From the NCBI GenBank assembly GCA_025774805.1, contig JALGZR010000023.1, forward strand, positions 1-64,000: a stretch of 64,000 nucleotides of DNA, given 5' to 3'. Of this stretch, positions 1-21,166 are shown piece by piece (within the stretch, counting starts at the first letter, position 1; every line of letters starts with the position of its first letter). The notes under the pieces are model-generated. The model saw only the letters and a list, made by a program, of their open reading frames with translations. It had not been told where the DNA came from and did not search any database. The translations under genes were made by a program, and so were the position numbers. Origin of the DNA: a bacterium. Lineage in GTDB: Bacteria > ARS69.

Positions 1-150
1 ACTCAGCATTGGTGGCGTGTCCTTCCTGCCCGTCCGGGCATCTGTGTGATGGCTCACACGAAAGGATACGCCGCCTTTCTCATGCTGCCGATCCACAACT
101 TCTGGTCATACCTCTGGACTGACTCAGAATCTCCTCTACGGAGGTGTTTA

Positions 151-339
151 GTGGAATCACAGTATGCATCCGTCGCGTACGTCAACTTCCTCTTCGGCAT
201 CTTCTGTGCGTACTGGGCACAGGTCACCTACCGTAGCGCCTGGCTCTGGTTTTTCATGGGTCTTTTGTTTGGGCCGATCACGGGAGTGGTCTTAGCATCG
301 AAGAACGTGGACCACCGCAAGACGAGGCAGGTTGCCTGA
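151..339 (+). CDS. Small two-span membrane protein (cassette gene 1)
   Basis: Encodes 62 residues from a GTG start at 151. The GTG is chosen because GGAGGT (140-145) lies 5 nt upstream; an in-frame ATG at 46 gives 97 residues but lacks such a site. Two hydrophobic stretches are visible (about residues 8-24 and 28-47), rich in Trp, Phe and Gly with the string WFFMGLLFGPITG, followed by a short basic tail. Tiny membrane proteins of this look are frequent anonymous cargo of integron cassettes. No function can be assigned. It is followed by a degenerate attC-like region before the next gene. Confidence 0.6.
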   Translation: MESQYASVAYVNFLFGIFCAYWAQVTYRSAWLWFFMGLLFGPITGVVLASKNVDHRKTRQVA

Positions 340-487
340 GTCGTCTCAGGGGAGGCTGAGCTGTGCCGCCGGGCACTGGACCGTAACAGAATAGGCGTAT
401 TGTGGGCTGTTTCGCACCCTGAAGGTGAAACGGCCAGTTTCAGCAGACGCGTGTTGCGCAGGCCAACTCGCGGCTGTCGCCGACGGC

Positions 488-551
488 CACTAACGCGGGC
501 GTCGACAGTGCAGCGAAATCAGGGCCCAGGCTGAGCGGCCGGGCGTTGAGC
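488..551 (+). repeat. Degenerate attC-like recombination site
   Basis: CACTAAC (488-494) resembles the R'' box RYYYAAC. GTTGAGC (545-551) is a perfect GTTRRRY R' box. The right arm CTGAGCGGC (531-539) is shared with the sites at 1077, 1828, 2875 and 4211. Internal pairing is weak, so this is probably a decayed site. Confidence 0.45.
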
Positions 552-570
552 GGACAAGGAGTATGGGGGC

Positions 571-1032
571 TTGAGGAAGATGCCCGAGTCGAAACGGACA
601 CTGCCCCCAACGTACCTTTTGGGGTCCTTGGCCGCCACCATGGGCCTTCACTTCTTTCTGCCGGTGCGGCTTCTGGTATCGTATCCAGGGAATCTGGTCG
701 GAGTACTGCCGATTCTCTTCGGGATCGGTCTGAACATCCTCGCGGACCAGCTTCTGAAGTCCCACAACACCACGGTAAAGCCGTTTCAGGAGTCGACGGC
801 CATCGTCACGTCCGGAGTGTATCGCTGGACCCGAAACCCAATGTACTTGGGCATGGTCTTGATACTGCTGGGCGCTGGCTGGATTGCGGGGTCAGTGACG
901 GCGCTGATTCCATGGCTCGTGTTTGGCGTACTAATGGACCGCGTGTTCATCAAACCTGAAGAGTCAATGCTCGCCTCGAAGCATCCGGACAAGTGGCTGG
1001 AGTACAGTTCTCGAGTCAGACGCTGGGTTTAG
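571..1032 (+). CDS. Isoprenylcysteine carboxyl methyltransferase-like membrane protein
   Basis: A 153-residue membrane protein of the ICMT/phospholipid-methyltransferase superfamily (SAM-dependent methylation at the membrane). The family signature is visible in the C-terminal half: SGVYRWTRNPMYLGM followed by two hydrophobic spans, then an EESML segment and a terminal W-x-EYSSRVRRW stretch, which in the family binds SAM. N-terminal spans lie at about residues 14-30 and 36-56. The start is TTG 571 after a GGGGG run, or ATG 580. The stop codon lies 5 nt before a clear attC, so the gene is a typical single-gene cassette. The substrate cannot be predicted. Confidence 0.75.
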   Translation: MRKMPESKRTLPPTYLLGSLAATMGLHFFLPVRLLVSYPGNLVGVLPILFGIGLNILADQLLKSHNTTVKPFQESTAIVTSGVYRWTRNPMYLGMVLILLGAGWIAGSVTALIPWLVFGVLMDRVFIKPEESMLASKHPDKWLEYSSRVRRWV

Positions 1033-1037
1033 AGGCG

Positions 1038-1097
1038 GCCCAACAAACCGCTGGAGCGGACGGGCTTCGCCCGCCGCTGAGCGGCTGCGCGTTCGCG
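1038..1097 (+). repeat. attC site (clear)
   Basis: R'' box GCCCAAC (1038-1044) and R'-position box GTTCGCG (1091-1097). The strand folds as CCGCT/AGCGG, GCGG/CCGC and CGGGC/GCCCG around a TTC loop. Extra unpaired bases occur on one arm only, which is the extrahelical-base pattern that gives attC sites their strand polarity. It lies directly after the ICMT-like gene. Confidence 0.8.
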
Positions 1098-1107
1098 TGG
1101 GGAAGAC

Positions 1108-1509
1108 ATGAGGTTCTATATAGCATCTTTCGTCGGAGAGCGAGACCGTACGCAAAAGATCCAATCCTCGTTGCGTCGTCGGGGTCACGACATTACCCTG
1201 GACTGGACGTCTTTCCCTGGTGTCCCGACACGAGAGCGAAATGACCGCCCCGATGAAGTCCGCGCCATAGCTGTGCGTGATCTGGAGGGGATTCGGTCCG
1301 CAGACGTCTTTGTGCTTCTTGCTTCCGTTGGCGATGGACGGGCTAAGTACGCCGAACTGGGCGCAGCTATCATGTCTGCGGTTCAAAACGGCAGACCACG
1401 TATCTACGTGCTTGGGGACAATCCGGACCATTCGGTCTTTTTCTTTCACCCGACGGTGGTACGGGTGAACTCGATGGAAGACATGCTGAACGATTTGAGC
1501 GAAGCCTGA
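1108..1509 (+). CDS. Nucleoside 2-deoxyribosyltransferase-like protein
   Basis: A 133-residue cytosolic protein resembling the nucleoside 2-deoxyribosyltransferase-like fold. It begins with a beta strand (RFYIASFVGERD), has an IRSADVFVLLA strand, then the segment KYAELGAAI, where the Glu corresponds to the family's catalytic nucleophile, and a final strand RIYVLGDN followed by an FFFHP segment. Such short relatives are common in genomic islands and cassettes. Whether it acts on nucleosides, NAD or nothing is unknown. The ATG is preceded by a GGGGAAG ribosome site. The stop codon overlaps the putative R'' box of the next attC. Confidence 0.6.
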   Translation: MRFYIASFVGERDRTQKIQSSLRRRGHDITLDWTSFPGVPTRERNDRPDEVRAIAVRDLEGIRSADVFVLLASVGDGRAKYAELGAAIMSAVQNGRPRIYVLGDNPDHSVFFFHPTVVRVNSMEDMLNDLSEA

Positions 1510-1571
1510 CGCGAAAGATGGGTTGCCCTTGACCGTCGCTTGGGCGCCGGCCAGCGAACCGGACGTTGGGC
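1504..1571 (+). repeat. Probable attC-like site
   Basis: GCCTGAC (1504-1510) overlaps the stop codon of the preceding gene and differs from RYYYAAC at one position. GTTGGGC (1565-1571) is a perfect R' box. The arms pair only partly (GCCC/GGGC core), so the assignment rests mainly on the boxes and the position. Confidence 0.45.
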
Positions 1572-1585
1572 GGTCAGCGAGGTAG

Positions 1586-1753
1586 ATGATGAGGACATCG
1601 TCCGAACGATCGGACGTTGTGGCCCTCAGGTACCCAGGGCCGGAAATCGCCCGTTGGGCGGAGGAAGGGGGCTTCGTCGTTGATCGATGCACGGCTGAGC
1701 CAGCAGAGGGCTCTCCCACGGATGCCATCTACCCGGAGGGAAGCCGGACGTAG
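1586..1753 (+). CDS. Small cassette ORF, 55 residues, unknown function
   Basis: A short ORF filling the unit between the attC-like sites ending at 1571 and starting at 1756. Two ATG codons in a row (1586, 1589) follow a weak GAGGT. The product begins MMRTSSERSDVV and is soluble, mildly acidic and without recognisable motifs (central segment EIARWAEEGGFVVD). The stop lies 2 nt before a clean R'' box, which is the usual cassette layout and the main reason to believe it. No family is recognised. Confidence 0.4.
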   Translation: MMRTSSERSDVVALRYPGPEIARWAEEGGFVVDRCTAEPAEGSPTDAIYPEGSRT

Positions 1754-1755
1754 CG

Positions 1756-1848
1756 GCCCAACAATGCGCTGCAGCCCACGGCCCCTGGCGCGGCCGTCGG
1801 CGAGCAGGTCAGAGCCCGGGGCCGTGGCTGAGCGGCTGCGCGCTCGTC
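1756..1848 (+). repeat. attC site
   Basis: R'' GCCCAAC (1756-1762). The arms CAGCC-C-ACGGCCCC and GGGGCCGTGGCTG pair fully except for one extrahelical C. The outer right arm CTGAGCGGCTGCGCG (1828-1842) is identical to that of the site at 1077. The R' position reads GCTCGTC, a departure from GTTRRRY. Confidence 0.7.
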
Positions 1849-2083
1849 GGAGAGATTGTCGTTTTCAAGGGGTGGTGTGCGCAATGAGTTCAGTTGTGTA
1901 CACGTGAGGAGAGCTGGGCATGAATGCGCTATCCATAGGCGGCCGGCGCGGCCTTTTCGACGTGTTTGTCCCGGGCCCTGCCGGACACGACCCGCCGAAT
2001 GACCGGACTACGGATCCGGCCGTCCATGGCTGTCCTGTTCGGCTGCGACGAACACGCTGCTGGAAGGAGGGGGGAACGAGAGC

Positions 2084-2728
2084 ATGAAAGCAGAGACACT
2101 TCATCGTCGGCTCAGTGGGAAGGGCGGTCGGCTGGAGGGCGTAACCCAATCGGTCCTTCGTTCGCGGACTTTGCTGGGCCATGTGGTGGGAGGACTCGGA
2201 TCCGATCAGGTTACCGTGAGATTCAATTCCAGCAAGGTACTGCTTGCAGTGGCGAAGGAAGCTCCAGAGGTTCTGGTCCCGCAGCTTCGGTCTCTCCTGA
2301 AGCTATTGGACTCGGACAACAGAATCCTGAAAGCGGCGGCGATCCGGACACTTGGACATGTCTCTCGCGCGGATTCCCATGGCCGAATTACCAGGAGGCT
2401 TGGCAAGATCCTAGAGTCCATATCCGGCCCTGACCTCGTGGTCGCCACGAGTGCGATCGAGGGCGCGGTGCTCGTCGCCCGGGCAAAGCCGCAGCTTGTC
2501 GACCGCGTAGTGCCGGCGCTATTGTCTGTCGGAAGGGGCAAGTACCGTACAGCCGAGTGCAGGAGTATAGTCATCGGCAAGGCGCTTGAGGGGCTCTCGC
2601 GGCTCCACTCTCATTCGAATCTGACACGGAAGATCCGGCAATTTGCTTCGTCCCAGCGACGAAACCCACGAAGAACAACCCGGGAACGAGCACGCGAACT
2701 GGTGAGACGGTTGGAAACTCCGAGTTAG
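2084..2728 (+). CDS. HEAT-like alpha-helical repeat protein
   Basis: A 214-residue, very basic, all-helical protein. Repeated helix pairs resemble HEAT repeats: VRFNSSKVLLAVAKEAPEVL then LRSLLKLLDSDNRILKAAAI, with the RTLGHVS ending typical of a HEAT turn, then LVVATSAIEGAVLVARAKP. Such solenoids are protein-interaction modules; no enzymatic motif is seen. The ATG at 2084 follows a strong GGAGGGGGG Shine-Dalgarno. It is a single-gene cassette between the attC sites at 1756 and 2804. Function unknown. Confidence 0.6.
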   Translation: MKAETLHRRLSGKGGRLEGVTQSVLRSRTLLGHVVGGLGSDQVTVRFNSSKVLLAVAKEAPEVLVPQLRSLLKLLDSDNRILKAAAIRTLGHVSRADSHGRITRRLGKILESISGPDLVVATSAIEGAVLVARAKPQLVDRVVPALLSVGRGKYRTAECRSIVIGKALEGLSRLHSHSNLTRKIRQFASSQRRNPRRTTRERARELVRRLETPS

Positions 2729-2803
2729 AACGTCAGGAAGGACGTCTGGAGGCCATGGGAGCTGGCTCGGTCTGCGACGAGATGCACTGAGAACATGGGG
2801 ACC

Positions 2804-2895
2804 GCCCAACAAGCCACGACTGCCGACAGACACCGCCACAGCCATCGATCTGCCCGAGAGAGCCGAGGCCGCGGCTGAGAGGTTGCTCGTTGGCA
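2804..2895 (+). repeat. attC site
   Basis: R'' GCCCAAC (2804-2810) and R' GTTGGCA (2889-2895), with the family arm CTGAGAGGTTGCTCG starting at 2875. The outer arms align as imperfect inverted repeats (AGCCAC..CTGCCG against AGCAAC..CAGCCG). The 92-nt length is within the attC range. Confidence 0.65.
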
Positions 2896-2913
2896 CGACA
2901 ACAATGAGGGCTC

Positions 2914-3407
2914 ATAATTAGGCCAGATCATCGCACGGTTCTCTTGGAGTTGCTCGAACGACTTGCGGGCGCGGATGTGATTTGGACTCTCACCGGCAGC
3001 CTGGCGCACGCACTCCAGGGTGCGCTTTTCGACGTTCATGAAATCGACATCCAAACGAATAAGGACGGGACTTGCCGTATCGTACGACTGCTCGAGGATG
3101 CGGTTGTCCGGCCAGGGTGGTGGCATCCAGCCTCCTCCGTCGGTCACACTATGGAGAAATGCACCTTCACTGTGTGAGGATCGAGATTATGAGGGCGATG
3201 CAGAAGCGACTCTCGGATGGCTCTCGGGGGCAGCCAGTGGATGTGTCAGCCCACCGGGTATTCGTGAACTTGGACGGTCACGATGTGCCTGTCTCATCGC
3301 TAGAGTACGAATGGCGGGCTCACGGGCGGAGAGGCGGGCCAGACCGAGCTGCTGTGCTCAAGCGAAGCGCAGCGATGAAGAGGAAGGAGAGATCTGAAAG
3401 AGTGTGA
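2914..3407 (+). pseudogene. Frameshifted nucleotidyltransferase-fold cassette gene
   Basis: Two overlapping frames together give one nucleotidyltransferase-like protein. The first half (from about 2914, frame of 2944) carries LTGSLAHALQGALFDVHEID, with the G-S and D-x-D-type features of minimal nucleotidyltransferases. The second half (frame of 3072) gives HYGEMHLHCVRIEIM followed by QKRL and ends with a charged tail. The frame change falls at about 3110-3130. No ATG, GTG or TTG sits at the expected start: a GAGGG site is followed by ATA-ATT at 2914-2919. Lost start plus frameshift indicates a decayed cassette gene. Its stop overlaps the next attC. Confidence 0.65.
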
Positions 3408-3468
3408 TAACAAGGCAATGCAGGCGGAGGGCCGCTTCGCAGCGCCGCCGATTGTCAACGCGTTAGCC
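3405..3468 (+). repeat. attC site
   Basis: The R''-like TGATAAC (3405-3411) overlaps the stop codon of the broken gene; R'-like GTTAGCC is at 3462-3468. Arms CAAT-gca-GGCGG and CCGCC-g-ATTG pair with unequal bulges, giving the asymmetric extrahelical bases typical of attC. Length 64 nt. Confidence 0.7.
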
Positions 3469-3491
3469 TTCTGAGGAAGGACGAGGGAGAT

Positions 3492-4133
3492 ATGACACTC
3501 AGTCGGTCTATTACGGGCGCCGCACTTCTGTCACTCGGTTTGGCTCTAGGGTGTTCCGATGACTCTGTTTCGATATCGAGCCAAAGGTACTCAGCGCTTT
3601 CAGACAGCAGCTTCGCAGTCGGCGATTCAAGCATTCTCGAAATCGGCAATTTCGCAGGCAAGGTGACGGTGATGCCTGGTGATCTTGGTCTGGCGCATGT
3701 CGTGGCCACGAAATGGGCTGGGCAACAACAGGACCTGGATGAGATCGGGGTTGAAATGGTCCAGATCCCGAATGGTGTTCGCATTCGCACGACCAGTCCT
3801 TCGGGATTGACCAATACCTCTGTCGACCTGGAAGTGACGGTTCCAGCGGATGCACGGCCAACTATCCATAATGGCGCGGGAGACATAGGTTACGAGGGCG
3901 GAGCGCTAGGCGAGAGCTCGTTTTCCGTAGGTGCGGGTAGTATTGCGCTCAGACTGCCAGCCGAGGTCAACGTGGAGCTGTACCTATCTGTCGGTGTAGG
4001 CTCGATTCGCGTGGAATTTCCCATTGTTGGACAGGTAACCGAGCACCTCGTCGACGGAGTCATCGGAACTGGAGCCAACGGCAGGATTGTGGCCCAAGTG
4101 GCGGCAGGCGGGATCGAGGTGATATCTCAATAG
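3492..4133 (+). CDS. Lipoprotein with a beta-rich DUF4097/head-GIN-like domain
   Basis: A 213-residue predicted lipoprotein. The signal peptide ends in the lipobox LGLALGC (Cys about 21), so it should be anchored to a membrane on the periplasmic side. The mature part is a repetitive beta-solenoid-like sequence with runs such as FSVGAGSIALRLP and LSVGVGSIRVEFP, as in DUF4097 or head-GIN putative adhesin domains. The ATG at 3492 follows GAGGAAGGACGAGGGAG. It is a complete single-gene cassette between two attC sites. Its role is unknown; members of this fold are often surface or auto-transport stress proteins. Confidence 0.65.
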   Translation: MTLSRSITGAALLSLGLALGCSDDSVSISSQRYSALSDSSFAVGDSSILEIGNFAGKVTVMPGDLGLAHVVATKWAGQQQDLDEIGVEMVQIPNGVRIRTTSPSGLTNTSVDLEVTVPADARPTIHNGAGDIGYEGGALGESSFSVGAGSIALRLPAEVNVELYLSVGVGSIRVEFPIVGQVTEHLVDGVIGTGANGRIVAQVAAGGIEVISQ

Positions 4134-4141
4134 GACGAGCG

Positions 4142-4232
4142 GCGCAACACGGGGCCACAGCCGACGGGCCGTGGACTGCGTCCTTTCTGGAAGCTGCGAC
4201 AGGCCCGTGGATGAGCGGCCGCGCGGTCGGCG
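4142..4232 (+). repeat. attC site
   Basis: R''-like GCGCAAC (4142-4148, one mismatch). The right arm ATGAGCGGCCGCGCG (4211-4225) belongs to the family arm, and the R' position reads GTCGGCG (4226-4232), i.e. GTT changed to GTC. The core pairs as CC-g-ACGGGCC with GGCCCGTGG, leaving one extrahelical base. Confidence 0.65.
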
Positions 4233-4241
4233 CAAAGGGGG

Positions 4242-4676
4242 GTGTCGGTGCCGTCGATTGCTGTTTTCGAGCCCAAGCATATCGACATGGCGATCTCGTT
4301 GTGGAGGACTACGGAACATATCGGGCTTAGCAGCGCGGATGAGCCAGCGGCTCTGGCCGTCTTTCTGGACCGGAACCCGGGATTCAGTTTCGTCGGTCTG
4401 GAGTTGGACGTTGTCGTGGGGGCGGCGCTTTGTGGTCATGATGGTCGTCGCGGCTATCTTCACCATTTGGCGGTAGTAGAGGGCCACCGTCGCGGTGGTC
4501 TGGGACGCAGGTTGTTGGAGTCCTGCCTGGACAGGCTCCGTGTGGCGGGTATCGGGAAGTGTCACGCGTTTGTGTTTTACCGCAACCCCTTCGGGGATCG
4601 GTTTTGGCGTCCGCTCGGATGGCAGCGGCGCAACGACATACTCGTATACTCCAGGCAGGTTCCTGGCAGCGCCTAA
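4242..4676 (+). CDS. GNAT family N-acetyltransferase
   Basis: A 144-residue GNAT protein that would transfer an acetyl group from acetyl-CoA. Motif A is visible as HHLAVVEGHRRGGLGRRLLE, with the R-x-x-G-x-G-like pyrophosphate loop (HRRGGLGRR) after a beta-4 strand. A C-terminal FYRNPFGDRFWRPLGW matches the motif B region. The start is GTG 4242 after AAAGGGG; a second GTG at 4248 is possible. The stop TAA lies inside the next R'' box (GCCTAAC), a tight cassette arrangement. The substrate is not predictable; small GNATs are among the commonest cassette products. Confidence 0.75.
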   Translation: MSVPSIAVFEPKHIDMAISLWRTTEHIGLSSADEPAALAVFLDRNPGFSFVGLELDVVVGAALCGHDGRRGYLHHLAVVEGHRRGGLGRRLLESCLDRLRVAGIGKCHAFVFYRNPFGDRFWRPLGWQRRNDILVYSRQVPGSA

Positions 4677-4736
4677 CAAGGGATCATAGGAGAGTCACGG
4701 CCGCAGATCTGGAGTGATCTGAGGTCGTGGTTGGCC
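4671..4736 (+). repeat. attC site
   Basis: A perfect R'' GCCTAAC (4671-4677) contains the stop codon of the GNAT gene; R'-like GTTGGCC is at 4730-4736. Arms CACGGCCGCAGATC and GATCTGAGGTCGTG pair with two mismatched or wobble positions around a TGGAGT loop. Length 66 nt. Confidence 0.7.
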
Positions 4737-5181
4737 GTCTCCACCTATACACGCCGCCCTCCGGCATCTACCTCACCCGCCTTTTGCTCGAGGGGGGGTG
4801 GACACCGGCCGCGCGCTCCTGCTACGGTGATTTGGCGCGACCGCGTCGGGCTTCCCTTTTCTAGTCCGCTCGAGACGTTGGACTACCGGAGGGCAGCGTC
4901 CCTGATGAGCGGGGCCCCGCCTCCGCGCTCGACAACAGGGGGCCATGGGCTCGCACGTTCGGCGCGAGTGCCTTCGAACCATGCTGAGTATGGCGACACG
5001 GGCAGATCTCTGGACCCCAGACCCGTGGAGCGCGATCATCTCCACTGGGGCGGCATGGTGCCCGTAAGGGCGTTGGCCAAACCCGCGGACTGAAGTGCTT
5101 ACCATGTCATCGGCCCGTTACCGTACCGCAGACTCGCCTAGAGAGCGTATCCAGCCGCGGAGCTTGGCTGTTACGTTGCCA
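4737..5181 (+). other. Gene-poor cassette remnant
   Basis: About 450 bp between two attC-like sites. The only longer frame (about 120 codons ending at 5093) has a composition unlike a protein (many Pro, Arg and Ser) and no recognisable motif. A perfect R'-type box GTTGGAC occurs at 4877-4883 without a matching R''. It is best read as a decayed cassette or fused remnants. Confidence 0.4.
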
Positions 5182-5236
5182 GCCAGCAAAAGGGCGGACG
5201 CTTCGCGTCCGCAGCACACCACACGCCGCCCTTGAC
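5182..5236 (+). repeat. Degenerate attC-like hairpin
   Basis: A perfect 8-bp hairpin with a TTC loop (GCGGACGC / GCGTCCGC, 5194-5212) nests inside AAGGGCGG (5190-5197) and CCGCCCTT (5226-5233), which can pair alternatively. The left box reads GCCAGCA instead of RYYYAAC and no good R' follows, so this is a decayed attC or simply a strong hairpin upstream of the VOC gene. Confidence 0.45.
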
Positions 5237-5283
5237 GCTCGCGGCCGATACGCGGTCCGCTATGCAGACACATGGAGGCAACG

Positions 5284-5679
5284 ATGAAGATCAAGCTCGA
5301 GAGCGTGTACGTCTCCGATCTGGACGAGGCGCTTGCTTTCTACACAGACGTCCTTGGATTCATCAAGAAGAAGGACGTCGCCATGGGAGAGACGCGCTAT
5401 CTGACAGTCGTATCGCCTGAGGAGCCGGACGGCACGGAGTTGCTGCTCGAGCCGTGCGGAGAGCATCCGGCGACCAAGGCGTTCAAGAAGGCCCTCTTCG
5501 ATGAAGGGATTCCTTTGACGGCATTTCTCGTCGATGACGTTGCCGCGGAACATGCGCGACTGGAGAATCGTGGCGTGGTATTCCGCTCCGCTCCGCAGCG
5601 GTACGGCGATGAGACGATGGCCGTCTTTGACGACACTTGCGGAAACTGGATCATGATCTATGAGATACACACAGAGTGA
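5284..5679 (+). CDS. VOC/glyoxalase superfamily protein
   Basis: A 131-residue vicinal-oxygen-chelate protein with one full pair of beta-alpha-beta-beta-beta modules. The N-terminal module reads VYVSDLDEALAFYTDVLGF, the classic first helix of glyoxalase or bleomycin-resistance domains. The C-terminal module has AVFDDTCGNWIMIYE, where the Glu is the usual last metal ligand. The ATG at 5284 is preferred over ATG 5272 because GGAGG (5274-5278) is 5 nt upstream. Proteins of this size act on small electrophiles or sequester antibiotics; the substrate is unknown. The stop is 15 nt before the next attC. Confidence 0.75.
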   Translation: MKIKLESVYVSDLDEALAFYTDVLGFIKKKDVAMGETRYLTVVSPEEPDGTELLLEPCGEHPATKAFKKALFDEGIPLTAFLVDDVAAEHARLENRGVVFRSAPQRYGDETMAVFDDTCGNWIMIYEIHTE

Positions 5680-5693
5680 CTCCGAACGCACGG

Positions 5694-5764
5694 GCGCAAC
5701 GTTTCATTAAACGGATGCAGCGGATGGCCCGCTACTCGGGCCGCCGCGGAACCGGCCGTTGGGT
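5694..5764 (+). repeat. attC site
   Basis: R''-like GCGCAAC (5694-5700) and a perfect R' GTTGGGT (5758-5764). The core arms GCGG-at-GGCCCG and CGGGCC-g-CCGC pair around CTACT with unequal bulges. Length 71 nt. Confidence 0.7.
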
Positions 5765-5783
5765 TGACAAGGGAGTTCCGAGA

Positions 5784-6265
5784 GTGAATGACGAGCGGAT
5801 CCATACGTTTGAAGCCACTGTCAGGTTCATGGAGGAGTCGGTCGCCGATCTATCGGACGAGGAGATGGTCGAGCAACTCTCAGGAGTGCCCAACCAGGGA
5901 GTATTGACACTCGGCCACATTATCTTCAGTTGTCAGGATACGGCGACTGAGCTCGGTCCTGGACCGTAGTTGCCGAGTGATCGGGAAACCGTCTTCGGAT
6001 ATGGCAGCACCCGCGGTGGCAGGACGAACGATATCCTCAGAAGAACCGACTTCAGATGCTCCTTGTAGATGCCACGGTCCGTTTGTGCCAGGTTGTACGT
6101 GGCGCGAACGCAACGGTCCTGAGACGGCGACTGTCGGATGACGCGTTGCCTATAATGGGTCAGGTCGTGCTGCAGGTTGTCGTAGCACACACCGCGTTTC
6201 ACACCGGTCAGCTTGCGATGTGGCGTAGGGCGATCGGGAAAGAGTCGGTAGGCGTCTCCGTATAG
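5784..6265 (+). pseudogene. Broken DinB-superfamily gene
   Basis: A DinB/YfiT-like four-helix protein split by two lesions. The first frame (GTG 5784 after GGGAG) reads FEATVRFMEESVADLSDEEM then GVLTLGHIIFSCQD and stops at TAG 5967-5969. A Trp codon is expected there in relatives, and the reading continues sensibly for about 30 codons. A frame change near 6050 leads to the frame of 6056, ending with VVAHTAFHTGQLAMWRRA, the C-terminal metal-ligand helix (H-x-x-x-H-x-x-Q pattern). The total length would be near 160 residues, normal for DinB. A TGG to TAG nonsense change plus a 1-2 base indel shows decay inside the cassette array. Confidence 0.7.
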
Positions 6266-6294
6266 AAGACCGGTGAATCTGTCTGGGAGGCGAT

Positions 6295-6400
6295 GAGCAA
6301 CCTACCGACGGCATGGACCTGTCGAGTGGTCTCTCCGCCACATCCCTGGCGGTGGTGGGGGATCGACTGTCGACGCGACCCCTGGCCGGTTCGGTTGGCG
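6295..6400 (+). repeat. Possible attC-like site
   Basis: GAGCAAC (6295-6301) and GTTGGCG (6394-6400) flank a 106-nt segment. It contains CCGCCA/TGGCGG and an outer GTCGA/TCGAC pairing. The boxes deviate from consensus, so this is tentative. Confidence 0.35.
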
Positions 6401-6432
6401 CGAGAACGGCCCGCAGGTGATACCAAGAGGTC

Positions 6433-7212
6433 ATGCGATCAGACCAAGCCATGAGATTCGACGCGGAACGGGTGAAGCAGTTCTACTCCCGGCAGAACGA
6501 GTGGGCGGGCGTCTATGATGGCGACGTCGCTGAGGCCCACCGGAGGAACGCCGCCATTGTCCACCGTATGTCCGGGGGCAGAGTCGGACGTCTTCTCGAA
6601 TTGGGGGCTGGTGGCGGACAGAACGGGGCTGCAGTCGCCGATCTTGGATTTTCGGTGGTGGCCGTCGACCTCACTCCTTCCGTGGCACGGAACGCCGAGA
6701 AGTTGGCAGCCCAGCCTCGGGGAGGACGGCTGAGAGTCATCGTGGGCGATTTTTTCGAGGTGGAATTCCCGGATCCTTTTGATGTCGTGTGCTACTGGGA
6801 TGGGTTTGGCATCGGAAGAGACGTCGACCAGCGCCGCCTGCTCGAACGAATTGCCGGCTGGCTGAGACCCACCGGATTTGCGCTGATCGAGGTCTATTCT
6901 CCTCAATACTGGGCCCGTGCTGCGGGGAGACAAGCGGGGTTCGGAGGGGCGGTACGCCGGTATGGCTTTGATGTAGAGAACTGCCGCATGCTGGACAGGT
7001 GGTGGCCCGTCGGCCACGAGGCTCAGGCGGTAATCCAATCCCTTCGGTGCTATTCTCCGGATGACTTCCGCAGACTTGTGAAGGGGACTGGGTTGGCCGT
7101 GGAATCGATGGAGCCGCGAGGGGCGGTGGACTTCGACAGGAACCAGTTCGTCGAGCAAGTGCCGCTTGAACGGGCTATGCAGTACCTTGCCAAGGTGATC
7201 CCGGCCCAGTAG
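6433..7212 (+). CDS. Class I SAM-dependent methyltransferase
   Basis: A 259-residue Rossmann-fold methyltransferase. Motif I is LLELGAGGGQNGAAVADLG (about residues 54-72), followed by the acidic ribose-binding VVAVDLTPS and the motif II region VVCYWDGFGIG. The C-terminal half has a long insert rich in aromatic residues that probably forms the acceptor site. The ATG 6433 follows AAGAGG; an in-frame ATG at 6451 is an alternative. It stands alone between attC-like sites. The acceptor is unknown. It is one of four small SAM methyltransferases in the first 25 kb. Confidence 0.75.
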   Translation: MRSDQAMRFDAERVKQFYSRQNEWAGVYDGDVAEAHRRNAAIVHRMSGGRVGRLLELGAGGGQNGAAVADLGFSVVAVDLTPSVARNAEKLAAQPRGGRLRVIVGDFFEVEFPDPFDVVCYWDGFGIGRDVDQRRLLERIAGWLRPTGFALIEVYSPQYWARAAGRQAGFGGAVRRYGFDVENCRMLDRWWPVGHEAQAVIQSLRCYSPDDFRRLVKGTGLAVESMEPRGAVDFDRNQFVEQVPLERAMQYLAKVIPAQ

Positions 7213-7235
7213 GCCGAGGGGGTCAGCCTATGACC

Positions 7236-7273
7236 ACCCAACAGGACCGATATGTCGGCCGATCCGGTTGAGC
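7236..7273 (+). repeat. Possible very short attC-like site
   Basis: A perfect R'' ACCCAAC (7236-7242) and a perfect R' GTTGAGC (7267-7273) flank a GGA-CCGA-tatg-TCGG-..TCC hairpin. At 38 nt it is shorter than known attC sites, so it may be truncated or coincidental. Confidence 0.4.
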
Positions 7274-7500
7274 ATCTGACGGAGGCGGAGGCGTGGTGTT
7301 CGGGTTGTTCCATTCCGACTCGGAAGCGTGAGAAGAAGCTGGAAGTGTGCTTTACCGGAACCCGCGCTTCGGAGAAGAAGGACCCGGCTTCCACGGCCGA
7401 GGAGGGCAATCTGAACGTGGTTGGATCTGTGACCAAGAACCTGGGAGTGTTATTCCGCGATCCAAACACCGGCCTCAATACGTTCGGCATGTCGTCGTGA
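7252..7500 (+). CDS. Hypothetical small ORF upstream of a GNAT gene
   Basis: An 82-codon frame (ATG 7252) that starts inside the attC-like segment. Its TGA stop overlaps the GTG start of the next gene (GTGA), an arrangement that would allow translational coupling. The sequence is hydrophilic with three Cys in the first 35 residues (a CSGC pair) and no family I recognise. It may be a genuine leader gene, a decayed cassette, or chance. No convincing ribosome site precedes it. Confidence 0.25.
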   Translation: MSADPVEHLTEAEAWCSGCSIPTRKREKKLEVCFTGTRASEKKDPASTAEEGNLNVVGSVTKNLGVLFRDPNTGLNTFGMSS

Positions 7501-7997
7501 CAGAGAGATATTCAAAGGGTATCACGCATTTAAAGGACCCTTCCGCCTGCACCAAAGAGGAGCACCGAAAGTTCGAGCGTCTCGTCCGGCTGGGCTTTGA
7601 GGGTTCAGACGAAAGGCTACCTGAACGCATCCGGAGTGCCAGGCGCCTTGCCTTCTATTGTACGTCGGATGACGTCGTTACCGCGATCGCCGCGCTCAAG
7701 GCCCCCGATGCGGCCTATCGGAATGACGTCTTCAGGAAGGCAGAGGTCGGAGCCGATCCGCGCGAATATGAACTTGAACTGGGGTGGGTCTTCGTCGTTC
7801 CCGCTCAGCGCGGGAACCGGATCGCCGAAGGCCTCTGCCACCAACTCCTGGCGTCCGTGCCGACATCCAGTGTTTTCGCAACGACGCGTCCGAATAATGC
7901 CTTCATGACGAAGATCCTTTCGGCTCTCGGATTCAGGCAAGCAGGCAGGCCGTACTTACGCAACAAACAAGAGCTCGTGGTATTCCTGCGATCGTGA
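7497..7997 (+). CDS. GNAT family N-acetyltransferase
   Basis: A 166-residue GNAT-like protein from GTG 7497. Beta-4 and the acetyl-CoA loop read GWVFVVPAQRGNRIAEGLCH (the R-G-N-R-I-A pattern). The following strand, TSSVFATTRPNNAFMTKILS, carries the Asn-containing motif B seen where GNATs bind CoA, and the C-terminus is ALGFRQAGRP, the typical last hairpin. The start lacks a strong ribosome site but overlaps the stop of the upstream small ORF, so translation may be coupled. The substrate is unknown. No attC follows it convincingly, which marks the apparent right end of the recognisable array. Confidence 0.7.
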   Translation: MTERYSKGITHLKDPSACTKEEHRKFERLVRLGFEGSDERLPERIRSARRLAFYCTSDDVVTAIAALKAPDAAYRNDVFRKAEVGADPREYELELGWVFVVPAQRGNRIAEGLCHQLLASVPTSSVFATTRPNNAFMTKILSALGFRQAGRPYLRNKQELVVFLRS

Positions 7998-8462
7998 AAT
8001 ACGGCATCCTTGGCGACAGGGGTCATGGTGGCGCTCGCCCGTTTCGTACACTGTGAGTCGCCGGGGGAGGTGGAGTGGAGGATCTGGAGATTTCCAACCA
8101 TCCGCCACAACCTACGCCACTTGCGCCGGTGTGGGCCAGGCGGTGTGAGAGAGGGGCACTCACGGCCGGTCTTTGGATGGACTCCCCGAAGCACGATTCA
8201 CCACAGGCTCAATGGCAAACCACGAGCGTTTGCCATGACGGGCGTAACCGTCCGCACGGTGGACAATTGCGTCCACCTCACCGCGTGCTCAACGACGCTT
8301 GCATTCCAGGCAATGAGGCTTGATGCTTGTTTCGAGCTTGCTGTGACGTGGTGTTCGATTTGACTGCTGGAGCTGACCGCTCGATTCGTGGTTGTCAACC
8401 CGCGGCGGCTTTCTCCGACCGCGGGTGAGGGCCCGGGCACTGGGCTGCAAGGGAAGTAGGCG
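7998..8462 (+). other. Long intergenic stretch, no supported gene
   Basis: 465 bp without a believable gene. Near its end, ACCCGCGG (8398-8405) and CCGCGGGT (8419-8426) form an 8-bp inverted repeat. A GTGGAC/GTCCAC hairpin lies near 8259-8276. These could be remnants of attC arms or transcription terminators. Reading frames here look non-coding. Confidence 0.4.
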
Positions 8463-9203
8463 ATGGCGAGCCTCCGAATTCGATTTCTGGGGACCGGCGA
8501 TGCGTTTGGGAGTGGAGGTCGCCTACAGATGTGCATCCTTGCTGAGTCGGATGATCAGTCTCTCCTCGTCGATTGTGGCGCTTCCTCGCTGGTTGCCCTC
8601 AAGGGGGCAGGCGTTGACCCCAATAGCATTGGCACAGTCCTGATCAGCCATCTCCACGGAGACCACTTCGGTGGGCTTCCGTTCCTCATCCTTGATGGGC
8701 AGATTTCAAAACGCACCGGCCGTCTCCGCATCGCCGGTCCTCCTGGGCTCGAGACTCGTGTGACCCAGGCAATGGAGGTTCTATTCCCGGGTTCGTCGGG
8801 TGGACATCGGGCCTTCGATATTCAGTTTCAAGAGCTTCCCGAAGGTGTCCCGACCTCGGTCGGTTCTGTTACCGTGACTCCCTACGAAGTACTTCACGTG
8901 TGCGGTGCCCCACCCTACGCCCTCCGGGTAGAGATCGATGGTCGGATCATCGCGTACTCGGGCGACACGGAGTGGACGGATCGGTTGGTCGCGGCCGCTT
9001 CGGGAGCGGACCTGTTCATCTGCGAGTCGTACTTCTTCGACGAGAAGGTACGTTTTCACCTCGACTACTCAACGATCATGAAACATCGCTCGGAGCTCGG
9101 CTGCAGGCGCATCGTTCTCACGCATATGAGTTCTGACATGCTCGGGCACTTGTCTGAGCTGGAGGTTGAGGCGGCCTACGACGGTTTCGAGATCACGCTC
9201 TGA
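8463..9203 (+). CDS. MBL-fold metallo-hydrolase (RNase Z-like)
   Basis: A 246-residue metallo-beta-lactamase-fold protein related to the RNase Z/ElaC-like branch. It opens with RIRFLGTGDAFGSGGR and carries the zinc motif SHLHGDHFGG at residues 62-71 (H-x-H-x-D-H). Later metal ligands are plausible in EVLHVCG (His), YSGDTEW (Asp) and VLTHMS (His). The length is shorter than full RNase Z (about 300) and the flexible tRNA-binding arm is not evident, so a small-molecule phosphodiesterase or lactonase role is as likely. The ATG follows AAGGGAAG. Monocistronic. Confidence 0.75.
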   Translation: MASLRIRFLGTGDAFGSGGRLQMCILAESDDQSLLVDCGASSLVALKGAGVDPNSIGTVLISHLHGDHFGGLPFLILDGQISKRTGRLRIAGPPGLETRVTQAMEVLFPGSSGGHRAFDIQFQELPEGVPTSVGSVTVTPYEVLHVCGAPPYALRVEIDGRIIAYSGDTEWTDRLVAAASGADLFICESYFFDEKVRFHLDYSTIMKHRSELGCRRIVLTHMSSDMLGHLSELEVEAAYDGFEITL

Positions 9204-9215
9204 ATTGGGCAAAAC

Positions 9216-9294
9216 CTGCGGCCTGACCGGCGGCTGGACCTGACACCGGATGCTCTTCGCCTGTCGGCCGCTCGTACTGACCAGAGGGCCGCAG
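9216..9294 (+). repeat. Inverted repeat, possible attC remnant
   Basis: CTGCGGCC (9216-9223) and GGCCGCAG (9287-9294) are perfect 8-bp arms separated by 63 nt, located just after a stop codon like the attC sites further left. No GTT box follows. Confidence 0.3.
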
Positions 9295-9354
9295 CGGAGA
9301 GACTGGGCCTCCGCCGTCAGGAACAAGGGGCCATTCAAACCATGACTGGATGCT

Positions 9355-10101
9355 GTGAGTCTCTCTGACGAGTACAAGCGGCAGTGCGGCTGGCGGTCAT
9401 GGGCGGCAATGTTCGATGCGCTGCCGCCCATTGTGGGCCAGACCGTTCTGGATCTCGGATGCAGTGTCGGAGATCAGACCAAGGAACTGGTGGCTCGTGG
9501 TGCCGACGTGATCGGCTTCGACGTGAACGAGGATCTCCTCATGGAGGCCCGGTCGAAGGAACTCGCGGGAGCCGAGTTCCGGCAGGCAGACTTCAGGACG
9601 CTTCCCGAGCTGGCGACACCAGCAGACGGCCTTTGGTGCATTTTCACGGCGGCGCATTTTCCGGATCGACCGGAGGTGCTTGCGCTCTGGAAGGGAAATC
9701 AGCGCTCAGGCGGGTGGATCGCAGTCATGGAAATCGACAATCTGTTGGGACACGGACCCCTGGGTAACCGCAGCAGATCTCTGCTCGAAGGTTACGCCCG
9801 AGAGGCCTTGATCGCGTGCCGGTACGATTTCTTCAAGGGCCGCAGGTTAGTGAGCCACTTCGAGCGATCAGGGTTTACGGTCGTGAAGTCCTTCATTGTT
9901 GCGGACCAGGAGCTCTGCTTCGACGGCCCGGCGCAAGATGGCGTAGTGGTGGCCTGGCGAGCACGATTCGACCGTATGAAGTACCTCCAGGCCTTGTGTG
10001 GATCGGCTTTCGATCAAGTTCAGGAGGAGTTTCTCCGCTGTTTGAAGCGGCCAGACCACTGGACAGAGACCAAGGTGTATGCTTGCATTGCTACCACATG
10101 A
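9355..10101 (+). CDS. Class I SAM-dependent methyltransferase
   Basis: A 248-residue methyltransferase from GTG 9355, the only in-frame start. Motif I reads VLDLGCSVGDQTKELVARG (about residues 31-49), then the acidic strand end VIGFDVNED and the motif II region LWCIFTAAHFPD. After a helix comes GGWIAVMEIDNLLGHGPL, the post-III region. The second half is longer than the minimal fold, suggesting a dedicated acceptor pocket. The target is unknown. It follows an MBL-fold gene by 151 bp. Confidence 0.7.
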   Translation: MSLSDEYKRQCGWRSWAAMFDALPPIVGQTVLDLGCSVGDQTKELVARGADVIGFDVNEDLLMEARSKELAGAEFRQADFRTLPELATPADGLWCIFTAAHFPDRPEVLALWKGNQRSGGWIAVMEIDNLLGHGPLGNRSRSLLEGYAREALIACRYDFFKGRRLVSHFERSGFTVVKSFIVADQELCFDGPAQDGVVVAWRARFDRMKYLQALCGSAFDQVQEEFLRCLKRPDHWTETKVYACIATT

Positions 10102-10414
10102 GGCAGGTGGAGGCGCTCAGCAATCCGCAAGCGGACACGTGGCACTGGATCAGAAACTTCGAGAAGGATGGAAAACTCTCGACGTTCGCGCGGGTCGCCC
10201 GGACAAAGCAATGGTCATCGAGCTCACGGGGCGAGGAACACCATGGATCAGGAACCACCTGAGACGAGAGTGAGCCATCCAGAAGACGCCCGGCACGTCC
10301 CAGGTGAGGGGGGCGCTCGGAGTGAGGCCTGGCCGGGACCAGGATCACGCCAGGGGCGCGGGCAATCCGTTCACGCCTCCGTTGAGAGGAAGAGGTCGAG
10401 AGGTGAGTGAGGGC
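10102..10414 (+). other. Intergenic stretch, nothing certain
   Basis: 313 bp. Several short frames cross it, one of them ending LTGRGTPWIRNHLRRE, but none has a start signal or recognisable family. GTTGAGA near 10381 resembles an R' box without a partner. I see no clear gene or site. Confidence 0.35.
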
Positions 10415-10843
10415 ATGTCGACGGTGGAAAACAAGGCCCTGGTGCGGGATTACTATGAGCAGGTCGTGAGCACCGGAGACTTGACGCACATCGAAGACTA
10501 CGTTTCGCCGGAGTACACCGAGGTTCATCGTGGGGTGCGCCATGCGGTCGGTCTTGACGGTGCCAGGGAGCACATCCTTGGCGTGAGGCAGACATATCCG
10601 GATCTCGAGCTCACCGTGGATCTCCAGGTGGCGGAAGGGGAGTGGGTCGTGAGCCTCGTCAAAATGAAAGGCACTCACCGCGGGGAATGGCTCGGGATCC
10701 GACCCACGCAGAGAATGATTGAGACGACGGCGGTCAATGTCGATAGGGTGGTGGCTGGAAGGATCGTGGAGCACGGCGGGGCAGCAAACCTCCTGGAGCC
10801 ACTTCTAGAGATAGGAGCGATCCAGGCCGTCGGATCCGGATGA
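10415..10843 (+). CDS. SnoaL-like ester cyclase-family protein
   Basis: A 142-residue protein of the SnoaL/NTF2-like superfamily. It has the standard opening ENKALVRDYYEQVVSTGD, then VSPEYTEVHRG, a predictor helix REHILGVRQTYPDLELTV, and the barrel strands EWVVSLVKMKGTHRGEWLGI and VDRVVAGRIVEHGG. This matches the ester cyclase group (polyketide-cyclase relatives), most of whose bacterial members have no known substrate. The ATG at 10415 follows GAGTGAGGG. Monocistronic on the plus strand. Confidence 0.75.
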   Translation: MSTVENKALVRDYYEQVVSTGDLTHIEDYVSPEYTEVHRGVRHAVGLDGAREHILGVRQTYPDLELTVDLQVAEGEWVVSLVKMKGTHRGEWLGIRPTQRMIETTAVNVDRVVAGRIVEHGGAANLLEPLLEIGAIQAVGSG

Positions 10844-10996
10844 AGGACACGGGCACGAACCAACCTTCGAGCAAACAGGTGGGGCGGATCGCCCGGTGGC
10901 CTTCGAAAAGCGGTGGCCAAGAGTGACCGACCCGCGGGACCTGAGAAGCCGCGAGCCCGGCGCCGTTCTACGGGACGGGCCCGGTCGGATCGGAGC

Positions 10997-11485
10997 ATGA
11001 CAAAGCTCCCGCGTGACAACGCGTCCGCGAAACGCCAACGCCGATTCGCTTCGAAGCGAGACACCTGGCTCGTGATTGTATTGTGGGGCGCGGCACTCGG
11101 TCTCGTGTATGCGACCCTGGATGTTGCAAGGTCGCCAACGGCGGCAGCGTTCAGGGCCGTGTTTCTGTTTGTTTGCATTCTGGCCGCGGTCCTCATCTTG
11201 TGGATTCTGTACGGCACCTTCTATGTGCTAACGGGGGAATCGTTGCTGATCCACTGTGGCCCTTTCCGCCGGCGGGTTCTGGTCAGCACGATTCATGAGA
11301 TCATTCCCTCCCGGAACCCGCTGTCGAGCCCCGCTTGCTCGCTCGACCGTCTCCATATCAAGTATGACGGGTCGCGGTCCGGGGTGTTGATCTCGCCCTG
11401 GGACGAGCGGTCCTTCTCGCGGGAGCTCGTCAAGCTCGATAGAGAGCTCGTTCTTCGGGGGGATGGTATAGTCCGCCGTGCCTGA
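10997..11485 (+). CDS. PH-domain (bPH-type) membrane protein
   Basis: About 162 residues from ATG 10997. A GTG at 10913 in the same frame would add a basic, unstructured extension. Two adjacent hydrophobic spans (about residues 25-44 and 54-74) precede a beta-rich cytosolic domain starting FYVLTGESLLIHCGPFRRRV and containing VSTIHEIIPSRNPLSSPA. This is the typical layout of DUF1200/bacterial-PH proteins. Their function is mostly unknown, often linked to envelope stress or bacteriocin-type islands. Confidence 0.65.
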   Translation: MTKLPRDNASAKRQRRFASKRDTWLVIVLWGAALGLVYATLDVARSPTAAAFRAVFLFVCILAAVLILWILYGTFYVLTGESLLIHCGPFRRRVLVSTIHEIIPSRNPLSSPACSLDRLHIKYDGSRSGVLISPWDERSFSRELVKLDRELVLRGDGIVRRA

Positions 11486-11629
11486 CAGGCCACTCCGCTG
11501 CGCCCATCTTGTTTGTGTCAGGAATCGGGGAGGTCGGTCCGGGTTCCGCGGGGTGGGTCAGCGATGGTAGGCTCAATACCGTGAGTAGCTTCGCGATTTG
11601 CCGGTCGGACCGGCAGGGAGGGATTCCGC

Positions 11630-12154
11630 ATGATACGAGAGTGGTTTGTTTGCGCTGTGGCGGTGTCTTTGGTCATCTCCCTCGGGTCGGCCTGCTCACC
11701 CTCGGGTCCCGCAGAGGAGATCCTGGCGGAGATCCCGCTGGATTCTCTCGAGGAAGTGATCTCGAAGACCGGGGTCACCGTCGATTCCGCTGTCACCACC
11801 GATGGTCGGGGATCCCTGAGAGTCAGCGCGTCCGAGCCGATGACCGTACGCATCGCGGAGCTCGAAGACCTATCCGTTGACAATGCCCGATTGATCTACC
11901 GTGCACGGCTCCGCACGGCTGACCTCAGCGGCAAGACCTACTTGGAGATGTGGTGCGAGTTTCCCGGCAGAGGAGCGTACTTCTCGCGGGCGCTGGACTC
12001 TCCGGTCACAGGGACTAACGACTGGCTGTCTCAAGAGACGCCTTTTGTGCTGCAGAAGGGTCAGATCGCGAGCAAGGTGAAGCTCAACCTCGTCATTGAC
12101 GGTCCAGGGACCGTCTGGCTCGACGAAATCGTTTTGACGAAGGCAGCGCTATAG
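11630..12154 (+). CDS. Putative lipoprotein, beta-sandwich type
   Basis: A 174-residue predicted lipoprotein. The signal peptide (MIREWFVCAVAVSLVISLGS) ends in Cys 22 within LGSAC. The mature part reads like a jelly-roll sandwich, with RLIYRARLRTADLSGKTYLE and an ending VWLDEIVLTKAAL, resembling the carbohydrate-binding-like folds of uncharacterised lipoproteins. No catalytic residues are evident. It is preceded by GGGAGGG and has a GCCGGT/ACCGGC inverted repeat about 30 nt upstream. Function unknown. Confidence 0.6.
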   Translation: MIREWFVCAVAVSLVISLGSACSPSGPAEEILAEIPLDSLEEVISKTGVTVDSAVTTDGRGSLRVSASEPMTVRIAELEDLSVDNARLIYRARLRTADLSGKTYLEMWCEFPGRGAYFSRALDSPVTGTNDWLSQETPFVLQKGQIASKVKLNLVIDGPGTVWLDEIVLTKAAL

Positions 12155-12474
12155 CGTGTCTGACGTCAGGATTCGAGGCTCGAGATCAAGTCCGGGATCG
12201 ACGGGCATTCCCGGGTAGACTCATTTTGAGGAAGGAGAAAGACTGGCCCAAGCACGCGCGACACGCGAATGGTGTGGGCGATCTCGCCCGCTCTGTGCGT
12301 GCGCTGTGCGGGCACGCGCGAGGTGGCGACCCGTCGGGAGGCCGGGAGAGACCAGCTCCCCGTTTCTCGCACCCTATCGGGAGCGCAGTCCGGTTGACAG
12401 AAGGGGCTGCGGGTGAAACACATGGCGCGGGAACGGGCGCCCTTCTGTCCACGCGCCTTGGTTGAGGCAAGAAA
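12155..12474 (+). other. Intergenic region upstream of the deoxynucleoside kinase
   Basis: 320 bp with no supported gene. A TTGACA occurs at about 12395 but no good -10 lies at the correct distance. Short GC-rich repeats (GCACGCGCG twice) are present. No attC boxes. Confidence 0.35.
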
Positions 12475-13125
12475 GTGAAGAACACGACGAAGAAGCTCTT
12501 CGTGTCCATGGCAGGCAATATCGGGGCCGGGAAAACGACGGCGGCCAAACTCATCAGTCAACGGTTCGGCTTCGAGCTCTTTGATGAACCGGTCATCGAT
12601 AATCGCTTTCTGCGGGACTACTATGCCGCTATGCATCGCTGGTCTTTCACCCTGCAGCTGGAGTTCTTGATCCGTCGTGTGGAGCACCATGAGCTGATCC
12701 GTACGGTTCCGAAGAGCTGCATTCAGGATCGGACGCTGTATGAGGATCCCGAGGTCTTCGCGAAGTACTTGCACGGGTTGGGGTGTATGGACAATCGGGA
12801 ATTGGATCTGTACTTCGAATACTTTCACCGTCTGAATCGGGACTTACGGCATCCCGATCTGGTCGTGATGTTGGCGGTGGATCGGGTGGAGACGTTGTTG
12901 AAGCGGATAAGAAAGCGCGGCCGCCAGGAGGAACGGGGAATCGATGCGGATTTCCTGACCGGATTGAACGCCTATTACTCGACGTTTCCGCAGGTCTGCC
13001 GGAAGAAGTACGGAATACCGCTGCATGTGATCGGCGTAGACCAGCTCGATATTCGCTCTCCGGAAGGCCAAAGTGTGTTCTTGCGAGAAGTCGAAGAGGC
13101 GCTCAAGAGGAATGGACTGGAGTAA
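12475..13125 (+). CDS. Deoxynucleoside kinase family protein
   Basis: A 216-residue nucleoside kinase (phosphorylates deoxyribonucleosides for salvage). The P-loop is at the N-terminus, MAGNIGAGKTTAA (about residues 12-24). The substrate-binding motif QDRTLYEDPEVFAKYL corresponds to the DRS motif, and the LID region RKRGRQEERGID carries the catalytic arginines. Length fits dNK/dGK/dCK-type bacterial enzymes. The start is GTG 12475 after TGAGGCAAG. Specificity (dA/dG or dC/T) cannot be read from sequence by eye. Monocistronic. Confidence 0.8.
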   Translation: MKNTTKKLFVSMAGNIGAGKTTAAKLISQRFGFELFDEPVIDNRFLRDYYAAMHRWSFTLQLEFLIRRVEHHELIRTVPKSCIQDRTLYEDPEVFAKYLHGLGCMDNRELDLYFEYFHRLNRDLRHPDLVVMLAVDRVETLLKRIRKRGRQEERGIDADFLTGLNAYYSTFPQVCRKKYGIPLHVIGVDQLDIRSPEGQSVFLREVEEALKRNGLE

Positions 13126-13496
13126 GGTCGGAGCGCGCCGTCCGACAACGGGGGCGCCGGACTCGGCGTTTCGGACGGGGGAGGAGGCCAGGGGCCGGGC
13201 CATTCGCCTACCGGGGCTTGGCCTGATGTCGAGCTGCCTCTGACGAGTGGGGGGGACGGGGCGCCGGGCCTGAGAGCTGCAGAGTACCAAGTGTCGGCGG
13301 CCCACTCCCCAACTGACAGGGCGGAGCTTCGGGCCCGGTCCTACAGCGTACCCGGCGAAAAGCCGATCGAGTCGAGCCTCCGGCAGATCCCGGCGATTCA
13401 AGGCGCTTTGCCCTCGGTTTCGGGATCGGATACTCTCGAGCGCCACGACCGGGCAGTTGAGCCCAAAGTCCGGCCGGTGCAACGGAAGGAGGGTGA
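13126..13496 (+). other. Intergenic region, no supported gene
   Basis: 371 bp, very GC-rich. Frames on both strands are open mainly because stops are rare at this GC content; none shows a ribosome site with a recognisable product. GGAAGGAGGG at its end serves the next gene. Confidence 0.35.
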
Positions 13497-14060: not shown

Positions 14061-14097
14061 CGGTCGCCGCCGGTGGCTTTCACGGTAGCGGGGCAGA

Positions 14098-14733: not shown

Positions 14734-14779
14734 CGTTCAGGGGATGCGGAGTTTGGACGGGCACTCTTGGAGCCGACGA

Positions 14780-16365: not shown

Positions 16366-16564
16366 CCGGCGGTTGATGCCGGCGCACGGCATCGCGGGAC
16401 CGGTGAGGTGATGCGTCCGAATCGATCCGGACCGGTAGGCTCTGGAGCCGACGGCCAGCACCATCGACGCGACCCCTCGACGGGGATCGGCCGTGTCATT
16501 GGGGGTCCCGAGCCGAGTGGCATTGCGTCGGACGGACGGGAAACGTGTAAGGTATTTGTTTTCG

Positions 16565-17077: not shown

Positions 17078-17215
17078 GAGGGGGACCCGGTCGCCACTGC
17101 CCACCGCCCCGGACGCAGTCGCTGACCGTGCAGCGCAGGCCCGAGCACTTCGCAGCGGCGCATCCGGCACCTCGGAGTCGCGGTGCCGTTGGTACCGCCA
17201 GATGAGGACGATGCC

Positions 17216-21061: not shown

Positions 21062-21166
21062 TAGAATGCGTCTCCTCGCTCCATGCGGTGACGGGACCTG
21101 CACCGTCGGTGCGTTCGGAGGCATCCCGCCCCCCCCTTTCCGACTCAACCGAAAGGGGAGCATCCC

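Follow-up and report, generated by a model that had tools for sequence, protein, structure and literature searches.

A hairpin behind a methyltransferase gene is very probably an attC site of a chromosomal cassette array

The attC sites of integron cassettes are recombined as folded single strands; as outlined in one study (PMC2727003), the bottom strand folds, extrahelical bases direct the choice of strand, and exchange takes place at the right box. Reverse integrons, in which the integrase and the cassette array are transcribed in the same direction, are described for example from Treponema denticola (PMC7691350), and chromosomal integrons with an inactivated intI are known, for example from Xanthomonas (PMC12444791). 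Predicted inactive integrases are common, two counts within one survey giving 43% and 46% (PMC3108266).

The locus described here lies at the start of a stretch of 64,000 nucleotides (the window, on contig C120), and the integron integrase of the same genome is encoded on a second contig (C266). With the reverse integrons it shares an intI followed by same-strand cassettes with attC sites; it differs in the internal stop of its integrase gene, in an array split over contigs and in that no attI was found between the integrase and the first cassette ORF. With the Xanthomonas case it shares an apparently inactivated integrase and a presumably stabilized array, and it differs in its lineage, in its reverse layout and in the weak residual sites seen over much of the array. 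The best reading is a sedentary reverse-type chromosomal integron whose integrase is probably inactive and some of whose sites are eroding. The hairpin at 1038-1097 is very probably an attC of a chromosomal cassette array, and as such a clear, if ordinary, example of something already known (Table 1).

Table 1. Cassette ORFs and attC sites of the window and of the integrase contig (R1 and R2, structure models described in the text; positions without a contig name are those of the window)
Feature	Position	Strand	Evidence and remarks
Probable eroded attC (preceding cassette), GGCCAAC...GTTGAGC	461-551	+	R2 9.8 bits, weak; right-half repeat family D3
Cassette ORF, phospholipid methyltransferase family (PEMT)	580-1032	+	PF04191, 53.5 bits; ends 5 nt before the 1038 attC
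attC site of this study	1038-1097	+	R2 48.6 bits, R1 33.3 bits, fold, letters
Next cassette ORF, 133 aa	1108-1509	+	ORF list; no Pfam family; stop overlaps the 1504 site
Probable eroded attC, GCCTGAC...GTTGGGC	1504-1571	+	R1 9.3 bits; R2 8.6 bits as 1485-1571; weak
Short possible cassette ORF, 55 aa	1586-1753	+	No Pfam family; stop 2 nt before the 1756 attC
attC, right box eroded (GCTCGTC)	1756-1848	+	R2 25.5 bits, E 5e-4 in the window, 25.6 bits genome-wide; R1 19.8 bits as 1762-1840
Cassette ORF, 214 aa	2084-2728	+	No Pfam family
Probable eroded attC, GCCCAAC...GTTGGC	2804-2894	+	R2 9.6 bits; D2 repeat copy at 2869; 75 nt after ORF 2084-2728
attC	3405-3468	+	R2 24.5 bits, E 9.2e-4; R1 9.9 bits
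Cassette ORF, 213 aa	3492-4133	+	No Pfam family
Possible attC remnant after ORF 3492-4133	4143-4236	+	Only repeat family copies at 4205 and 4200
Cassette ORF, GNAT acetyltransferase	4242-4676	+	PF00583, 46.8 bits; stop overlaps the 4671 site
Probable eroded attC, GCCTAAC...GTTGGCC	4671-4736	+	R2 9.8 bits
Cassette ORF, glyoxalase family	5272-5679	+	PF00903, 72.6 bits
attC, GCGCAAC...GTTGGGT	5694-5764 (model match 5706-5764)	+	R2 21.0 bits, E 0.0064; R1 14.6 bits
Zone of doubtful remnants	6300-8410	+	R2: 6300-6431, 12.2 bits; 8214-8234, 15.2 bits; 8371-8410, 11.4 bits
attC	C266:34646-34780	+	R2 50.0 bits; R1 33.1 bits when the locus was searched
attC	C266:35432-35527	+	R2 49.3 bits

Read along the top strand, the site passes from a left box R'', GCCCAAC (1038-1044), through a stem with an extrahelical A1060 and a 1x2 loop to a TTC apex, and returns along the other arm to a right box R', GTTCGCG (1091-1097). 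The left box is a perfect RYYYAAC, as a first-pass annotation made from the sequence had claimed, and the right box departs from GTTRRRY; AAC and GTT are both present, and the pairing of the R box in the fold involves only AAC/GTT and part of the remainder. The attC plan of R box, spacer, L box, stem and variable apex is present, the match to model R2 running over its whole length (1-76 of 76). The first-pass annotation had also described a stable bottom-strand fold of three paired blocks, which holds (blocks of 6, 5 and 5 bp), with a TTC loop and with unpaired bases on one side only. The TTC is that of the top strand, the bottom strand reading GAA, and the one-sidedness is correct as a net count but not literally: the single clean extrahelical base is top A1060 (bottom T), while the second interruption, the 1x2 internal loop, has unpaired base(s) on both sides. 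The asymmetry amounts to one surplus base at either of two points, both on the arm that determines bottom-strand choice, and the extrahelical positions coincide with those of foreign attC sites.

Using DNA parameters, the bottom strand of these 60 nt folds with -20.1 kcal/mol (z -2.44, equalled by 3 of 200 shuffles) and the top strand with -20.7 kcal/mol (z -2.81, equalled by 4 of 200), so that folding both strands, as had been proposed, finds a stable bottom strand but a top strand that folds equally well; within a 96-nt context the z-scores are -2.37 for the bottom (4/200) and -1.67 for the top strand (11/200). The fold energy is only modestly beyond chance and hardly picks the bottom strand. 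A stem-plus-box score of 40 places the site second on the + strand (best - strand site 42.5), and the best scores of six randomized windows, generated as first-order Markov chains and scored on one strand, lay between 33.5 and 45.5, with one of the six above the site. The earlier assertion that such a fold would be absent from a random GC-rich repeat was too strong, the energies lying about 1.7-2.8 s.d. from the shuffles and simple stem scoring being non-discriminating.

Consensus boxes were of no more help. A strict scan of the window for RYYYAAC and GTTRRRY 45-150 nt apart returned one pair (59755-59809, which reads on both strands) and no site of the array, the 1038 site being missed because its right box is not GTTRRRY. 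Within the window Rfam gave no match at gathering scores, and in four loci from other genomes the attC sites could not be recognized by way of direct repeats. Since the strict box scan and the stem score had failed, a structure model was built from foreign sites. The best 80 of at least 575 candidate relatives of the genome's integron integrase were kept, and attC sites were sought in their loci by strict boxes plus a stem. Model R1 comprises 19 foreign sites, hand-picked after a first trial of 24 and with the strand set by the arm bearing the extrahelical base; two of them come from genome G031, one of these with a GTTCG right box, and none from the genome studied here. For model R2, 70 R1 matches were taken from a selection of 27 foreign loci, most of which have the same-direction layout.

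Both models recognize the site. R1 matches 1038-1096 with 33.3 bits (E 3.5e-6 for 64 kb, both strands; E 2.8e-4 genome-wide), and R2 matches 1038-1097 with 48.6 bits (E 1.2e-9 for 64 kb, both strands; E 9.8e-8 in the 5.1-Mb genome). At E≤10 the R1 search of the genome listed three matches, each of them lying on C266 or C120, and the R2 search listed six, the top three being the two sites on C266 and the 1038 site. Such a genome search scores only 150 first-look candidates in full (of 14,242 for R2) and can therefore miss sites; C266:34646-34780, for example, was missed by the R1 genome search although its locus score is 33.1 bits. Covariation agrees with the modelled structure: in alignment A4, which was fitted to the structure and leans towards it, 90.0% of the cells are paired versus 72.2% after shuffling, and 226 are changed on both sides versus 77.1 (0 of 500 shuffles as high), and in the MAFFT alignment A3, with the structure laid on by eye, 88.4% are paired versus 72.6%. 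It is homology, not energy, that lifts the site beyond chance. Neither the box consensus nor the fold energy tests the site well when used by itself, and the structure model from foreign sites was decisive.

The site stands at the head of a series of weaker attC-like sites that extends on the same strand through roughly the first 6-8 kb, and similar right halves (repeat families) recur behind neighbouring ORFs. Four window sites reach an R2 E≤0.01 (1038, 1756, 3405 and 5706). Those at 461, 1485, 2804, 4671 and 5136 score only 8.6-9.8 bits, which scattered matches elsewhere in the window equal, and all but the last owe their acceptance solely to a location between ORFs, the expected strand and a recognizable box at their start or end. 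The matches at 5136, 6300 and 8371 are doubtful, that at 8214-8234 is a bare box palindrome with no stem, the expected site at 4143-4236 matches neither R1 nor R2, and beyond 8410 all R2 matches in the window have at most 12.2 bits. At E≤10, a limit chosen after the hits had been seen, R2 gives 37 window hits (22 on the + and 15 on the - strand), divided into 12 + versus 3 - in the first 8.5 kb and 10 + and 12 - in the other 55.5 kb. Gaps between ORF and site are not always short (75 nt at 2728-2804, more than 100 nt at 339-461). The + strand by itself is no evidence for cassettes, because it also carries several of the largest ORFs that come later in the window.

Ten ORFs within 1-7209 were compared with Pfam, and four gave clear families (two methyltransferases, a GNAT and a glyoxalase), one a partial match to a nucleotidyltransferase family and five none. 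A short + strand ORF at 2944-3174 matches the N-terminal part of the aminoglycoside-2''-adenylyltransferase family (PF10706, 34.6 bits, profile positions 3-59 of 149) and is a truncated fragment flanked by two attC-like sites. Two ORF pieces at 5676-6265 (+) look by eye like one broken small gene, the piece 5676-5966 being without a Pfam match; we take the gene to be possibly DinB-like.

Further along, 17 of the 20 additional + strand ORFs tested between 7497 and 23871 have a Pfam family, presumably of kinds common in cassettes; the + strand genes at about 8.5-24 kb include GNAT, DinB, GrpB, YbjQ, carbonic anhydrase, SnoaL and DUF1697. The R2 search of the window found no convincing attC behind the ORFs at 7497-23871, and the fold z-scores of the post-ORF stretches at 1-24 kb (-2.20 to +1.43) are too weak to show further remnants. 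The GC content is 0.605 in the first 14 kb of the window and 0.667 from 16 kb onward. It is conceivable, though rather doubtful, that this is a fossil reverse integron whose oldest cassettes, at about 8.5-24 kb, lost their attC sites after the integrase broke and became ordinary chromosomal genes. If so, every stage between a working cassette and a domesticated gene would be displayed in a single array.

The integrase gene itself (TIGR02249, 415.8 bits against a cut-off of 265) lies at C266:32698-33639 on the + strand, and the two attC sites of that contig follow on the same strand, so that the cassettes lie 3' of intI in the reverse layout. The two cassettes contain the ORFs 15864-16643 and 16800-17441 of locus L027, each with its attC, after which the contig ends. 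GTT does not occur in the 213 nt that separate the integrase stop from the first ORF (L027, 15651-15863), so that no attI insertion point could be located in this interval. One in-frame TAG interrupts the integrase frame, upstream of the segment expected to carry the catalytic tyrosine, whose placement is our assumption. With the stop before this expected residue, the native integrase is probably inactive and the array frozen. In an alignment with 82 others (two partial frames of the 84 loci were dropped) it deviates at 5 of 87 conserved columns, tied third highest of the 83, the others having a median of 1 and a maximum of 9; the stop aside, the gene does not appear clearly decayed. The stop may accordingly have arisen recently or be an artefact, for which one sequencing error would suffice. 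The genome is a MAG with an estimated contamination of 5.06%.

Since C266 ends and C120 begins inside an array, both on the + strand, the two contig ends can be joined head to tail, and we think it rather probable that they belong to one array. A separate cassette cluster lacking an integrase (CALIN) at the start of C120, which would also be compatible with an attC at 1038, is the less likely arrangement, being set against that possible join. It would agree with the finding that the ends of C266 share no 15-mer with the start of C120 within 3 kb, and with the presence of an attC on a third contig (C114:36589-36723). Homologues in genomes of the same family were uninformative about the junction, lying on different contigs and several being distant or many-copy relatives. 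Quite apart from continuity, the site might be dead, that is, an attC by descent whose right box and first extrahelical base are too changed for any integrase. This we consider improbable. The box GTTCGCG is indeed not GTTRRRY, and the top-strand base at the first extrahelical position is G where 48 of the 70 foreign sites have C; but the last seven bases of 30 of those 70 likewise fail GTTRRRY, 8 of the 70 end in GTTCG-type boxes, and 22 differ from the commonest base at the extrahelical position, 13 with the same G. Moreover, in the VCR site, replacement of the extrahelical G16 reportedly had only a small effect, the strongest reduction given in the part of the study considered being 2.7-fold (PMC2727003).

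Far less probable than either is an intrinsic terminator or a chance GC-rich hairpin behind the methyltransferase gene. The modest fold energy and the plain stem scores, which randomized DNA matches, would allow it, but the sequence and structure together match attC with an E of 1.2e-9, the hairpin is not followed by a T-run, and similar right halves recur behind the neighbouring ORFs. The identification as attC made at first pass is upheld by the scores of the foreign models, by the one-strand ORF-attC-ORF organization, by the related sites found elsewhere in the window and on C266, and by the integrase in the same genome. The several cassettes in one direction (two on C266, with four window sites at E≤0.01 and weaker ones) fit the reading preferred here, a sedentary reverse-type integron with eroding sites.

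Under that reading, the 1038 hairpin would be the 3'-terminal attC of a cassette spanning about 546-1091, which carries the PEMT-family methyltransferase ORF and which the 461 and 1038 sites would probably bound. The start of the window would fall inside the array, headed on C266 by the integrase and two good same-strand sites. As established for the family, in a working integron the bottom strand would fold into a hairpin, the integrase would bind the boxes and extrahelical bases, and cleavage at the right box would allow the cassette to be inserted or excised. The native array would now be frozen, several of its window sites looking eroded; the well-formed 1038 site could nevertheless serve as a substrate for another integrase in trans.

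Elsewhere in the genome, the attC on the third contig (locus L137:2587-2727, - strand; R2 27.1 bits genome-wide and 40.9 bits at the locus) is of the long type also seen in genome G003 and is followed by a 111-aa ORF, and an isolated 60-nt attC-like site lies at C212:26996-27055 (L138:1997-2056, -; R2 22.8 bits).

The relatives compared were 59 other genomes, four from the same family and the others from the same domain only. Within the family, G003 has 31 R2 matches at E≤1, of which 30 fall below 0.01; they are spread over its contigs C23, C355, C20, C1 and C352; those on C352 lie beside its integrase, whose frame is uninterrupted, with cassettes in the same direction. The G003 sites have the same boxes and stem plan as the 1038 site, and most are about 140 nt long and alike, whereas the latter has 60 nt with a 3-base apex. 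R2 matches were absent from G001 and G002 and weak in G004 (one, 21.4 bits); the G002 integrase lies less than 200 bases from a contig end, so its array may simply be missing. An apparently eroding reverse-type integron can thus be set against G003, a member of the same family that is rich in attC sites and whose integrase frame is uninterrupted, and loss of integrase activity and attC decay could thereby be compared within one family.

An attC hit (E≤0.1) was found in 42 of the 80 integrase loci, and by the best hit 24 have cassettes in the same direction as the integrase, 17 are divergent and one (L073, left out of the direction groups) is neither. The integrase tree of 83 rows holds 26 same-direction loci (including G003 and G029), 17 divergent, the one studied here and 39 ungrouped. 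The 17 divergent loci together make up one side of a branch with support 83/96; cassette direction follows the tree (L033-L112), the three layout labels requiring 2 changes, the minimum possible, versus 14.5 when shuffled. The integrase of this study groups with that of G003 (99/79) and then with that of G002 (83/84), neither fork reaching the tool's support star.

Three loci of G003 (L135 on C23, L139 on C355 and L136 on C20) have many attC sites and are comparable with a superintegron. Locus L030 of G029 contains a 300-nt direct repeat (14097-14396 and 14672-14971, 95% identity), the second copy of which starts within an attC (14583-14682) and is possibly a duplicated cassette piece.
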